DNA from: a virus
Length of the DNA: 25,219 nt
Direction: 5' to 3' (one strand)
IMG/VR virus record: IMGVR_UViG_3300036853_000080
Span: 1-25,219 of that record
The notes beneath the pieces were generated by a model that did no database searches, was not told the DNA's origin, and saw nothing but the letters and a program-made list of their open reading frames with translations. Position 1 is the first letter of the stretch; every line of letters begins with the position of its first letter. Below are positions 3,631-18,722 of this stretch, one piece after another. Made by a program: the position numbers and the translations under genes.

Positions 3631-3660
3631 AGCGTAGCACGGGCTGGATAGGTTTGTCAA
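3631..3660 (-). promoter_or_regulatory. Promoter for the 3424-3603 gene
   Basis: Leftward: TTGACA (3660-3655), 15 bases, TGc, TACGCT (3636-3631), spacer 18. Predicted start near 3624, a leader of about 21 bases containing AGGAGG. Confidence 0.6.
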
Positions 3661-3706
3661 GTATAGCTTCAGATAGCGAAATGTGAAGGTGCCTGAGGAC
3701 GTTGTT

Positions 3707-3887
3707 GCGTACCCACCTTTTTACTGCTACACCTACTACCTAATTAACAGGTTATAAATCAGCACACGGGGAGTGGGGTCAGTAGAATAGGTGTTGTAAG
3801 TATCTCCCCCGCTGTGTGCACCGTGTGGGACTTTGAGCGCAGCGAGAAGATTCGGTAGTAGGTGTAGCAGTAAAAAGGTGGGTACGC
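3707..3887. repeat. Perfect 34-bp inverted repeat with 113-base spacer
   Basis: The left arm 3707-3740 is the exact reverse complement of the right arm 3854-3887, and the match stops sharply at both ends. Inside the spacer, shorter complementary pairs compete: CACACGG (3763-3769) with CCGTGTG (3821-3827), or GCACAC (3762-3767) with GTGTGC (3814-3819). The left edge of the spacer is AT-rich (3741-3760). No transposase or other gene lies within it. Confidence 0.9.
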
Positions 3888-3930: not shown

Positions 3931-3980
3931 ATGTTGCGTCGAGCGAAGCTCTTCACAAGTGGGCAGCTGCCCACCAACAT
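3931..3980. other. Nested palindromes able to fold as a three-way junction
   Basis: ATGTTG (3931-3936) pairs with CAACAT (3975-3980). They enclose GAGCGAAGCTC (3941-3951) and the perfect palindrome GTGGGCAGCTGCCCAC (3959-3974). The arrangement can close as one stem bearing two hairpins, in RNA or in extruded DNA. Confidence 0.6.
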
Positions 3981-4075
3981 TCGTCGCGCGTAGCTCGTCA
4001 AGCATTTCGCCTAGTTCCACGCCCCGCTCTTATTATTCGCTGCGGCGTTGCGAAACGTTTCATCAGATCGAGGCA

Positions 4076-4098
4076 CGAAAAAGGCGGCTTTCGCCGCC
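4076..4098 (-). terminator. Rho-independent terminator of the 4106-4949 operon
   Basis: On the leftward strand the stem GGCGGC, loop GAAA, GCCGCC is followed directly by TTTTTC. It lies 8 bases beyond the stop codon at 4106. Confidence 0.9.
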
Positions 4099-4451: not shown

Positions 4452-4949
4452 TTAGTGGGTGTGCTTGGCGATCCAGTCGGCGGGTGCTTCGAGTTCCGCG
4501 CCTTCCGCCGTCTTCAGGTGGCCATTCGCGGCGACGACCTTCTGAAGGGCGAGCCTGCCCGTCATCCGCAGCCGACCTTCCCAGCCCTTGTTGCGGTTGT
4601 TCCAGCGGGAGTGATCCACGCCATTCGCGTCGAGCAGCGCGATGAACCGCTCGATGCTGATCTTGGTTCCTTCGAGGCACTCGGCGGCGAGTTCCTGCGC
4701 CAGCCAATCCCAGCAGGAGCGCTGGGCGACCTTGCCAAGGCCAGCAGTCGCGGCGCGTTCTGCGTAGCGGTGCTTGTAAGTCGGCTTGACGACCGACGAG
4801 GGTTTGGCGTTGTCCGCCGCGACTTCGCCGTCGATGGGCAGAGCTTCGACGACATCGGCGAGGGTGGGGGTTTCGATGATGGCGACTGCCTCTTCGAGAG
4901 CAGCGGCAACGGCGGGAAGGGCGGCAACAGCGCGTGACTTACGTGACAT
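4452..4949 (-). CDS. Conserved phage protein of unknown function, 165 aa (paralogue of 1937-2566)
   Basis: ATG at 4949 with AGGAG 8 bases upstream. The N-terminal part (about residues 1-45) is alanine-rich and acidic. From residue 50 it carries the same blocks as the 1937-2566 protein: SSVVKPTYKHRYAERAA, RSCWDWLAQELA, NGVDHSRWNNRNKGWEGR and RMTGRLALQKVV, ending PADWIAKHTH. The blocks are nearly identical over the NRNKGWEGR-RMTGR core, whereas the N-termini cannot be aligned. It heads an operon with the 31-aa peptide and the lipoprotein. The family's role is not known to me; conservation of Trp, Arg and Asn in the core suggests a fixed binding surface. Confidence 0.9.
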   Translation of the reverse strand: MSRKSRAVAALPAVAAALEEAVAIIETPTLADVVEALPIDGEVAADNAKPSSVVKPTYKHRYAERAATAGLGKVAQRSCWDWLAQELAAECLEGTKISIERFIALLDANGVDHSRWNNRNKGWEGRLRMTGRLALQKVVAANGHLKTAEGAELEAPADWIAKHTH

Positions 4950-5255: not shown

Positions 5256-5284
5256 TTGACACGCGCCGCTCGCTGTGTTAAAAT
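5256..5284 (+). promoter_or_regulatory. Promoter of the HNH gene, predicted to give a leaderless mRNA
   Basis: TTGACA (5256-5261), 14 bases, TGt, TAAAAT (5279-5284), spacer 17. With a standard 6-base discriminator, transcription begins at 5291, which is the A of the start codon. Confidence 0.8.
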
Positions 5285-5290
5285 GCGCCC

Positions 5291-5707
5291 ATGCATTATA
5301 AGGATAAAAATAGAGCTAAGGAAGAGGCTAAAGGTTTAATTTCACTTCCGGGAGAAATATGGGACTTTGTTCCTGGTTATTCAGACTATATGGTTTCAAG
5401 TAAAGGGCGTGCTGCAAATTGTCCTTACGGCGTTTGGAGATTAGCGCGTTTGATGTGGATTGGCGGAGGCGGGAAAAATTGTAAATATCTTGGTTTTAGG
5501 GTAAAAGTTGCTAGGAATAAATACAAATATATAAGGATACATACAGTTGTTGCTGAATTGTTTATAGGTCCACGCCCTCCTGGAATGTTGGTGTGTCACA
5601 AAGAGGATGATAGAAATAAAAATTCAGTAGATGATTTGTATTATGGTACTCACGGTGATAATATAAGAGATTGGTGGAGGATTCGTACCGCTAAGTATGG
5701 GTTCTGA
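5291..5707 (+). CDS. HNH homing endonuclease with NUMOD4 motif
   Basis: A 138-aa product. Residues about 21-40 (PGEIWDFVPGYSDYMVSSKGR) form a NUMOD4-type segment, the usual N-terminal DNA-contact motif of this class. Residues about 80-126 form the HNH nuclease: IRIHTVVAELFIGPRPPG, then VCHKEDDRNKNSVDDL, then YYGTHGDNIRD, with His84, His103 and Asn124 as likely key residues. Such enzymes cut DNA at specific sites and spread themselves between phage genomes. The gene is clearly more AT-rich than its neighbours and sits alone between divergent units, both signs of recent insertion. There is no ribosome-binding site before the only plausible ATG, in line with a leaderless mRNA. Confidence 0.9.
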   Translation: MHYKDKNRAKEEAKGLISLPGEIWDFVPGYSDYMVSSKGRAANCPYGVWRLARLMWIGGGGKNCKYLGFRVKVARNKYKYIRIHTVVAELFIGPRPPGMLVCHKEDDRNKNSVDDLYYGTHGDNIRDWWRIRTAKYGF

Positions 5708-15442: not shown

Positions 15443-17320
15443 ATGGCTGACGGGTTCACACAGAATTTGGGGTTGACCAAACCCGACGTTGGTTATTCCG
15501 ATGATACTTGGGGCGAGAAATTAAATACCAACTTCGACATCATCGATAAGATGAAGTCGGTCTACATTTCGGATACGCCTCCCCCTGTTACGGTTCCTGG
15601 AGCGTTGTGGTGGGAAAGCGATACCGGCATCCTGTATCTTTTGTACAACGATAGTACATCGCTTCAATGGGTAGGAATTGGTGGAGGCGGTGGAGGCGGG
15701 GGCGGTGCTTTTCCAGAGGCTCCTATCGACGGAGTAGTTTACGGTCGCCAGAACGCCGGTTGGACACCGACCCTTCCGGACGCCCCGAATAATACTAATA
15801 CTTACGGGCGTAAAGGCAATGCTTGGTCCATCATAACCAGTTTGGTTGACGCCGCTGTTGACGGCAACCTTTACGGGCGCAAGAACGGTGCTTGGTCGGT
15901 AGTTCCAGCTAGCTTGGCTGATGCTCCGGCAGACGGTAATTATTACAGCCGCCGTAATTCGGCATGGGCTGTTGCCCCCACGGGGTTGAGCGATGCCCCA
16001 AGCGATGGTAATTCGTACGGGCGCAAGAACGGTGCTTGGGCGGTTATAGCCGGAGGTACCGATGCTCCGTCCGATGGATTCGCTTATGGGCGCATAAACG
16101 GTGCTTGGAGTAAGGTAGCGGGGCTTAGCTTAGCAAATGTATTCGCGGTAACGAGCGCCGCCGCTCTTGTTTTAGGACCGAATGGTGCGGCTAACCCAAC
16201 GCTGTCGATAGACACTTCTGTCGGCGCTTCTGCGGTAACTGGCCTCAACTTACAAACAAGAGCGGCAGGAGCGGGTGTTTATCTGTCCGCCACTTCTTCC
16301 GCTGCGAGTGAAGGGTTGTTTATCAATCCCAAGGGTACCGGTAAGCTGACTTTGTGTAATCAAAACGCACTCGGCGTAATTTATGTCGGCAACGGGGCCT
16401 TTTCCGGCGACGATAGTTTAATTCTGATGAATCGAGCTTATACGCCCGCGAGCGGGTTGCTCAATTCACACGCGATGCGCGATGAAAGCGTGATGACGCA
16501 GAACGTAACTGGCGGTGCTTTTTCGGGTTATTCGTCATTCGACTGTGCGCCGCAATTCAAAGGTGTTTGCACAACGGCGATGAACCACATCCATTCGTTC
16601 CAATCGCGTCCGATTTATTGGTCAACCGGCCACGTAAACGAAATGGCTGGGTTTACCTTCCAAGCTGGTGCCTTCAGCGGTACTGTTGACAGCGCCTACG
16701 GCTTCATGATGATGGACGGCATCGAACAGACAGGCGGTGTAATCACCAATCAGTACGCATTTTATTCCAATACATTGACGGCGGGCGACAACAATTATTT
16801 CTTGTGGGGTGGCAACAATCCGTCCTACTTGCCGGGTGTGTTGCGGCTCGGAACCAACCCCGCTGGCATTTCGGTTGAGGCGCTGTTGGTGTCTTACAAT
16901 GGTGCAGCTACTTTCGGCACATCGTTTGCTGATACTTACGCTGGTGCCGCACAATTAACTGCTAACTTGTTTTATCGGGCCGGTGTTGTTGTAGGCTCCG
17001 TTACTACGACGCTGACCGGTACGCAATTCAATCCGACATCCGACGAGACACTCAAGAACTTCATCGGCCCATATGATCCGAAAGCAGCAATTGAAATTAT
17101 CCGCGCCGATCCAGTTCGTGAATTTACCTGGAAAGTGGACGATAGTCACGAAATAGGATGGGGCGCGCAGACATCCTACGCGATATCGCCTGATTTAGCG
17201 ACGCCTCCGTCTCACGAAGGACTTCCGTGGGGGATGGATAAGACAAAACGAATTCCGTATATTTGGGCGACGATTACTGATCTGCTCGACCGCGTAGAAG
17301 CATTGGAAGCTGCACGATGA
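15443..17320 (+). CDS. Tail fibre with repeat region and C-terminal S74-type chaperone domain
   Basis: A 625-aa receptor-binding candidate. Residues 1-40 form an anchor domain (NLGLTKPDVGYSDDTWGEKL, NTNFDIIDKM) shared with the protein at 19466. Nine glycines in a row (80-88) form a hinge. Residues 91-225 hold six repeats of the DAPSDGNSYGRKNGAWAV type. A strand-rich shaft and tip follow. The end has an intramolecular chaperone of the peptidase S74 (endosialidase) kind: TSDETLKNFIGPYDPKAAIE with Ser533 and Lys538 as the expected self-cleavage pair, ending in a coiled coil (ITDLLDRVEALEAAR). Such domains fold the trimer and then cut themselves off. The host receptor is unknown. Confidence 0.9.
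   Translation: MADGFTQNLGLTKPDVGYSDDTWGEKLNTNFDIIDKMKSVYISDTPPPVTVPGALWWESDTGILYLLYNDSTSLQWVGIGGGGGGGGGAFPEAPIDGVVYGRQNAGWTPTLPDAPNNTNTYGRKGNAWSIITSLVDAAVDGNLYGRKNGAWSVVPASLADAPADGNYYSRRNSAWAVAPTGLSDAPSDGNSYGRKNGAWAVIAGGTDAPSDGFAYGRINGAWSKVAGLSLANVFAVTSAAALVLGPNGAANPTLSIDTSVGASAVTGLNLQTRAAGAGVYLSATSSAASEGLFINPKGTGKLTLCNQNALGVIYVGNGAFSGDDSLILMNRAYTPASGLLNSHAMRDESVMTQNVTGGAFSGYSSFDCAPQFKGVCTTAMNHIHSFQSRPIYWSTGHVNEMAGFTFQAGAFSGTVDSAYGFMMMDGIEQTGGVITNQYAFYSNTLTAGDNNYFLWGGNNPSYLPGVLRLGTNPAGISVEALLVSYNGAATFGTSFADTYAGAAQLTANLFYRAGVVVGSVTTTLTGTQFNPTSDETLKNFIGPYDPKAAIEIIRADPVREFTWKVDDSHEIGWGAQTSYAISPDLATPPSHEGLPWGMDKTKRIPYIWATITDLLDRVEALEAAR
15713..16117 (+). repeat. Six in-frame tail-fibre repeats of 20-24 residues
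   Basis: Each unit has the form DAPxDGxxYGRxNGAWxxV with variable links. Units begin at about residues 91, 112, 136, 160, 184 and 207 of the fibre. The first two and the fourth are the most diverged. A seventh copy lies in the separate tail protein at 17493, encoded near 17840-17890. Confidence 0.9.
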
Positions 17321-17493
17321 AGCAACAGGAAGCGATTGCATTGATTATATATCTTCAACGTGCGAGCAGCATCGTTCCGACCACCGGGAATGAATGGAAT
17401 GTGATTGCGTCGGGTATCAAATTAATCGAGGACATCGCGAACGGCAAGGTCGAAATCGAAGTGAAGCCGATCAATTCGGTGGGGAATTCGTAA
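17317..17493 (+). CDS. Small protein between fibre genes, 58 aa
   Basis: ATG at 17317 overlaps the fibre stop (ATGA) and the TAA overlaps the next ATG (TAATG), so all three frames are coupled. The product is MKQQEAIALIIYLQRASSIV, PTTGNEWNVIASGIKLIEDI, then a short strand KVEIEVKPINSVG. It is probably a small alpha-beta protein with no signal peptide. It could be a fibre assembly helper by position; nothing in the sequence proves it. Confidence 0.7.
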   Translation: MKQQEAIALIIYLQRASSIVPTTGNEWNVIASGIKLIEDIANGKVEIEVKPINSVGNS

Positions 17494-18722
17494 TGGCGTT
17501 CGATTTTCCAGATAATCCGAGTATTGGAACGGTGTACGGGGATTACACCTGGGACGGAGAGAAGTGGGCCGTTACATCTGATGGAAGTGGAGGCGGTGGC
17601 GGAACTCCGAGCGATACCAATCCGATTATGGACGGCGTTGCTGCCCCCGGCGTTTCTGATAATTACTCACGCGGCGACCACGTTCACCCAACTGACACAT
17701 CGCGCGCCGCCGCAAGTGCAATTCCGATTCCAGCCACCGCTGTTCCGCTTATAGAAGGAACGGCGGCAGTCGGTGTTTCTGTCAAATATGCCCGTGAAGA
17801 TCACGTCCACCCCGCAAGCGGCGGAGGAGGCGGCATAACCGATGCACCTTCAGACGGCAAGACTTACGGCCGTTTAAACGGAGCGTGGTCGCAAGCATTG
17901 GCGATCACGGGCGGAACGTTAACAGGACCGTTGACGTTAGCAGCGGACCCGGCATCGGTAATGCAGGCGGCAACGAAACAGTACGTCGATGCGAACAGCA
18001 TGACGCAAGCCGTTGCTGATGCACGATATGTTAATATCACTGGCGATACAATGACGGGAGGTGTCAATACACCTGCGAGTTCGGTCAATCAGCTTGGTGA
18101 TGTCTACGCTATTCGCAGCGCTAATACTGGCATCGTATTTTTTGGCAGCAACATTGCACAGTACATCTATTTCGACGGTACGCAGTTCCTTTTCCAAGGA
18201 GCGCCGATCCAAGCGTCGCTGAATGCAGCTTCGGCTGCGGTAACAGCCGCACCGGGCGACAACGACACCAGCGTTGCAACAACGGCCTTTGTTCAAGCTG
18301 CCCTTGCGGCAGCTGGAGGAGGAGGATTCCCCGCTGGCACCAAGACGGTGTTTTATCAAGCGGCGGCACCAACTGGCTGGACTAGGATTACGACCGTCGA
18401 TGATGTGGGTTTACGTGTCGTTGGGTCTGGAGGCGCTCCGGGCGGCGCGGTGCAAGGCACCAGCAACTTCTCGGTTGTGTTCTCGCAGACCGTGACCGGC
18501 AATACCACGCTGTTGCAGTCGCAAATTCCGTCTCATACTCATACAGTTAATCAATCCACAAATGCTGGCGTGCTCGGTAATACATCGGGCGGCTCGGCGA
18601 ATTTCTGGTATGCTTACGCTGGTACATTCAATGCCGGTGTAACTGGCGGCGATGGCGCGCACAGTCACCCAGTTACCCTTAACCTCAAGTTCGTTGACCT
18701 CATACTCGCGAGCAAGAACTGA
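17493..18722 (+). CDS. Second tail fibre or tip protein with His-rich C-terminus
   Basis: The start at ATG 17493 is preferred, giving 409 aa; the frame is open further upstream but overlaps the 58-aa gene. Modules in order: a short N-terminal fold (FPDNPSIGTVYGDYTWDGEK), a Gly linker, two repeats ending YSRGDHVHPTD and YAREDHVHP, another Gly linker, one copy of the DAPSDGKTYGRLNGAW repeat of the first fibre, and shaft segments (GGTLTGPLTLAADP, VNITGDTMTGG, NDTSVATTAFVQAAL). The C-terminus has SHTHTV and HSHPVTLNLKFVDLI, resembling the metal-binding tip of short tail fibres such as T4 gp12. It probably binds host surface sugars. Confidence 0.85.
   Translation: MAFDFPDNPSIGTVYGDYTWDGEKWAVTSDGSGGGGGTPSDTNPIMDGVAAPGVSDNYSRGDHVHPTDTSRAAASAIPIPATAVPLIEGTAAVGVSVKYAREDHVHPASGGGGGITDAPSDGKTYGRLNGAWSQALAITGGTLTGPLTLAADPASVMQAATKQYVDANSMTQAVADARYVNITGDTMTGGVNTPASSVNQLGDVYAIRSANTGIVFFGSNIAQYIYFDGTQFLFQGAPIQASLNAASAAVTAAPGDNDTSVATTAFVQAALAAAGGGGFPAGTKTVFYQAAAPTGWTRITTVDDVGLRVVGSGGAPGGAVQGTSNFSVVFSQTVTGNTTLLQSQIPSHTHTVNQSTNAGVLGNTSGGSANFWYAYAGTFNAGVTGGDGAHSHPVTLNLKFVDLILASKN

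Follow-up and report, generated by a model that had tools for sequence, protein, structure and literature searches.

The stretch of DNA analysed here (the window), a fragment of 25.2 kb from IMG/VR, carries genes for terminase, an SU10-type portal and capsid. A TerL search with the window protein retrieved 28 related contigs, most of them 75-87% identical, and the nearest isolate by TerL is Ochrobactrum phage vB_OspP_OH (hereafter OH), at 59%. Two genes, A (1937-2566, + strand) and B (4452-4949, - strand), are paralogues, of which relatives carry a third copy, and the region between them contains a large hairpin. Neither protein A nor protein B has a match in Pfam or PHROG. The predicted model of protein B has a pLDDT of 72 and found no match in a PDB fold search, and no relatives of this protein were found in the bacterial genome contigs searched. 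Beyond gene B there is an HNH endonuclease with a NUMOD4 motif (5291-5707), probably a homing endonuclease, directly after a strong rightward promoter (5256-5284). The features of the hairpin region are as follows.

3660-3631, - strand: leftward promoter-like site TTGACA/TACGCT, read from the sequence, left of the hairpin
3660-3687, - strand: leftward promoter-like site TTCACA-16-TATACT, pointing away from the element
3707-3740, + strand: left (5') arm, pyrimidine-rich, starting GCGTAC
3741-3853, + strand: spacer or loop region, containing shorter internal stems
3762-3771, + strand: conserved loop motif, GCACACGGGG in the window
3783-3800, + strand: second loop motif, TAGAATA...TTGTAAG
3854-3887, + strand: right (3') arm, purine-rich, finishing GTACGC
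3943-3956: palindromic repeat of GCGAA-N4-TTCGC type, 9/10 matches
3959-3974: perfect palindrome GTGGGCAGCTGCCCAC
3997-4010: palindromic repeat of GCGAA-N4-TTCGC type, 8/10 matches
4050-4063: palindromic repeat GCGAAACGTTTCAT of GCGAA-N4-TTCGC type, 8/10 matches
4083-4098, - strand: strong intrinsic terminator pointing left, which closes off the side towards protein B
4452-4949, - strand: gene for protein B, the syntenic locus marker in relatives

Over 34 nt the two arms are exact reverse complements, separated by 113 nt, as originally noted, and pairing extends to 38 nt with one mismatch (3707-3744/3850-3887). No other inverted repeat in the window that spans 100-230 nt scores above 40; this one scores 87.5, against a best of about 31 in shuffles of the region. 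Folding, which had been suggested as a check, gives z = -9.4 for the + strand and z = -8.4 for the - strand when the element is treated as RNA, and the competing shorter pairs noticed earlier in the spacer appear as inner pairing in the fold. It had also been claimed that the element holds no gene, and the ORFs that overlap it are indeed mechanical and unsupported. A tRNA scan of the element found none, and the intrinsic-terminator test found no T run after either arm. DNA searches of the element against phage DNA, and of an arm against viral contigs, gave no match; a 32-nt Listeria phage match to the element was rejected as chance. It is worth adding that a different repeat, of about 49 nt, occurs in seven copies inside the tail-protein genes (15715-17888).

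A profile of protein B identified 36 loci, and the interval left of B was then scanned for hairpins. A hairpin of 143-184 nt was found in 18 of the roughly 30 related contigs that have this interval (17 IMG/VR contigs and the window), in every case left of the same leftward gene. The members are the window, L052, L054, L057, L061, L064, L065, L066, L067, L068, L072, L073, L074, L077, L080, L082, L084 and L085, the least typical being L072 (154 nt) and L082 (143 nt). The first homologue to be found, in L010/L008, is at the same place and is 183 nt long, with arms that are 82% complementary; in L069 the loop motif is present and the pairing is weaker. The isolate OH has a homologue at 1673-1825, carrying CTACACGTGG in its loop. 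An OH repeat at 748-981 had first been read as the homologue and was rejected: this 234-bp inverted repeat (L050:748-981) consists of two divergent promoters before p04, and L077 has a comparable repeat of divergent promoters in front of gene A.

Members were chosen partly by stem strength, with position and loop motif as the independent criteria. The ends of the hairpin are conserved (TAC[GC]...[CG]GTA), the 5' arm is pyrimidine-rich across the family and often has CTTTTTC at its end, the loop motif is approximately TACRCGNGGGG, and many members have the second motif in the form ACAATA-N5-TTGTAG. Searching viral contigs with the motif by itself added no members: it returned only two known ones and three chance hits to unrelated contigs that lack the hairpin. 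The near-complete relative G001 has a single copy. On these sequence comparisons, the repeat belongs to a family of hairpins that is old, occurs once per genome and is found in a mostly uncultivated phage group. Absence from near relatives, which had been named in advance as evidence against a function, is not what most relatives display; about a dozen contigs have no clear copy (L055, L056, L058-L060, L062, L070, L071, L075, L079, L081 and L083), some of their intervals being shortened by contig ends, and no such hairpin was found in phiM5, P26218 or two Manatee Spring phages.

The arms of different members are a median of 62% alike, compared with 57% for shuffled arms. Among the eight members with ungapped arms, 85% of 30 positions pair within a member, whereas exchanging arms from one member to another lowers this to 53%; every one of the 30 stem positions has changed on both sides. 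Here pairing was counted from the arm ends and not from alignment columns; column-wise RNAalifold on a MAFFT alignment gave no structure, because the sequence alignment misplaces the diverged arms. The covarying bases that the original prediction had proposed to look for are present in the relatives. The prediction had further held that exact pairing implies selection or recent origin, of which selection stands and recent origin does not, since in relatives the hairpin occupies the same place although its arms differ in sequence.

A small mobile-element relic (MITE-like) or an assembly artefact would account for long exact terminal inverted repeats with no gene inside. Either is hardly credible, as there is one copy per genome, always at the same locus, in 18 independent contigs; the arms have diverged with compensatory changes, and no target duplication was seen. 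An insertion-sequence relic is likewise contradicted, multiple copies or a variable location not having been found. The four options first offered for the repeat are thereby reduced to a replication origin and a structured RNA, as nothing indicates a recombination site. A search of five relatives of 42-44 kb for RVT_1, as in a retron or other RT element, found none.

The main rival to an origin is a structured RNA, non-coding and about 180 nt long, read in the terminase orientation (+ strand). It would owe its activity to the long stem and the conserved loops; one example of a target would be the host RNA polymerase, the phage apparently having none of its own. The massive covariation together with conserved loop motifs supports such an RNA. 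Stem mispairs are G.T more often than A.C (42 against 20, p = 0.007), a bias equally compatible with RNA, G.T being the mildest mispair in DNA too. Of 15 regions tested, including two or three that do not truly belong to the family, 14 fold better on the + strand, although the OH hairpin folds better on the other strand. A T7-type RNA polymerase was not found in five relatives, in a search whose control was also silent. The length and closing stem of the element are similar to those of 6S RNA and other structured RNAs of about 180 nt; unlike 6S, it has a near-perfect stem, no promoter and no match in an Rfam covariance-model scan that included 6S. In nearly all members no sigma-70 promoter enters the hairpin from the left, though other promoters of the window come close to consensus. 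For the window, where sigma-70-like sites were the only type tested, none leads into the element and the neighbouring ones point away. The earlier statement that no promoter reads the element therefore holds for sigma-70 in the window and most relatives, and fails in L064 and L072, which have sigma-70-like sites 67-200 nt off that face it. An RNA would also leave the adjoining conserved DNA palindromes unexplained. We consider the RNA possible but doubtful; if it is correct, the hairpins would form an undescribed covarying phage RNA family.

These palindromes lie immediately to the right of the hairpin. Counted at 8/10 matches, GCGAA-N4-TTCGC has a density of 13.7/kb in the first 150 nt and 5.1/kb in the next 150 nt, falling to about 2/kb up to a distance of 1500 nt; elsewhere it is 0.6-1.3/kb, and over the whole interval the figure is 5.9 against 0.97/kb. 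The outer GCGAA/TTCGC is kept and the middle is variable (GCGAAACGTTTCGC, GCGAAGCGCTTCGC, GCGAAGCTTTTCGC), and constant outer bases with a varying middle look like the signature of a protein site and not of a covarying RNA stem. The perfect palindrome at 3959-3974, with its flanking CTTCACAA, is common to L007, L008/L010 and L036.

The palindromes resemble dimer sites, and could be operators for a phage repressor or activator, with the hairpin insulating or regulating the leftward early promoter next to it. In the window, as in many relatives, leftward promoter-like sites are indeed present at a distance of 20-75 nt from the left side of the hairpin. However, the hairpin intervenes between palindromes and promoter, no TGTCA-type leftward promoter was found beside it in L067, L074, L077, L080 or L084, and operators have no need of a 34-bp stem, so that we regard purely regulatory DNA as unlikely.

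A primase-polymerase/SF3-like helicase (DUF5906/VapE-type helicase) is encoded in G001, G012, L013, L026 and OH, its AEP domain match being weak (E 0.06, with a weak AEP N-terminus in G001); the window fragment ends short of this gene. Among isolates, only OH has the full-length protein. The relatives also encode a family A polymerase. The crenarchaeal plasmid pRN1 encodes a primase-polymerase with SF3 helicase, and needs only its replication operon and a stem-loop of about 100 nt that is conserved in structure and not in sequence; a similar stem-loop origin has been proposed for Bordetella phage BIP-1/BPP-1 (PMC4234260). Because this phage clade has a primase-polymerase/helicase, and pRN1, with the same enzyme type, replicates from a stem-loop, we propose an origin module. 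Our preferred reading, held with slightly less than even confidence, is that the element would be the structural core of the clade's DNA replication origin. By analogy, the palindromes would be binding sites and the hairpin a loading or priming structure. The palindromes would be bound, and the DNA opened, by a DNA-binding protein of the phage, either the primase-polymerase/helicase itself or a partner; the exposed + strand would then fold into the hairpin, and the hairpin would place the primase-helicase so that it can make the first primer, a role that has been proposed for the pRN1 stem-loop.

The palindromes, the promoter-free position and the GC skew fit a DNA origin: the cumulative GC-skew minimum is within about 1-2 kb of the hairpin in G001, G012 and OH, a signal confounded by gene direction, which switches at the same place. 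Counting against it are the possible operator role of the palindromes, the contigs without a clear hairpin, the terminator on the protein-B side, detected in 5 of the 18 members, and the primase-polymerase gene, which does not adjoin the hairpin but lies some 6-8 kb away in OH, L013 and G001.

The hairpin precedes the terminase block and, in OH, lies 1.7 kb inside the left end. Such a position would also suit a site that is recognised or processed in genome packaging or in the formation of terminal repeats, and a long hairpin intermediate occurs at T7 concatemer ends. A role of this kind is very improbable, as the OH hairpin is away from the 55-bp terminal repeats and the relatives' contig ends differ.

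Returning to the origin, the element is like those of pRN1 and BIP-1 in being a large non-coding stem-loop that keeps its shape and not its sequence, in a replicon with a primase-polymerase and SF3-type helicase (as seen in the relatives' genomes, with the weak AEP match). It differs from the pRN1 stem-loop in measuring about 180 nt rather than 100 and in having conserved ends, a conserved loop motif and a palindrome cluster alongside; in pRN1 the stem-loop directly follows the 3' end of the replication gene, whereas here the two are far apart. It may work like the pRN1 stem-loop, yet we do not class it as a member, because of the palindrome cluster and the distance to the replication gene. 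The oriV of RSF1010 comprises the ssiA/ssiB hairpins and iterons (as summarised in PMC4234260). Here too, initiator repeats would stand beside a hairpin presenting a priming site, although the ssi hairpins are short and paired in place of one long hairpin, and the repeats are palindromes here and direct iterons there. Single-strand origins (sso) and Frpo-type single-stranded promoters are long imperfect single-strand hairpins of similar size, but no conserved sigma-70 promoter is formed inside the present hairpin.

More tentatively than the origin itself, we suggest an undescribed class of phage origin, in which a hairpin of about 180 nt, selected for shape, would lie beside palindromic initiator sites and be used by a lineage-specific primase-polymerase/helicase. 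Phage origins used with primase-polymerases are little known, and the stem-loop origin model so far draws on a single archaeal plasmid family plus a prediction for one phage. The module offers 18 natural variants with compensated arms, and the isolate OH, for a direct test of the model.

It may be added that a PurZ-like adenylosuccinate synthetase (phrog_1211) alongside a family A polymerase was noticed in G001 (L090:16145-17194) and OH (p32/p33), accompanied in OH by a nucleotide pyrophosphohydrolase. Judged from gene content, these PurZ-bearing phages may have 2-aminoadenine (Z) genomes.
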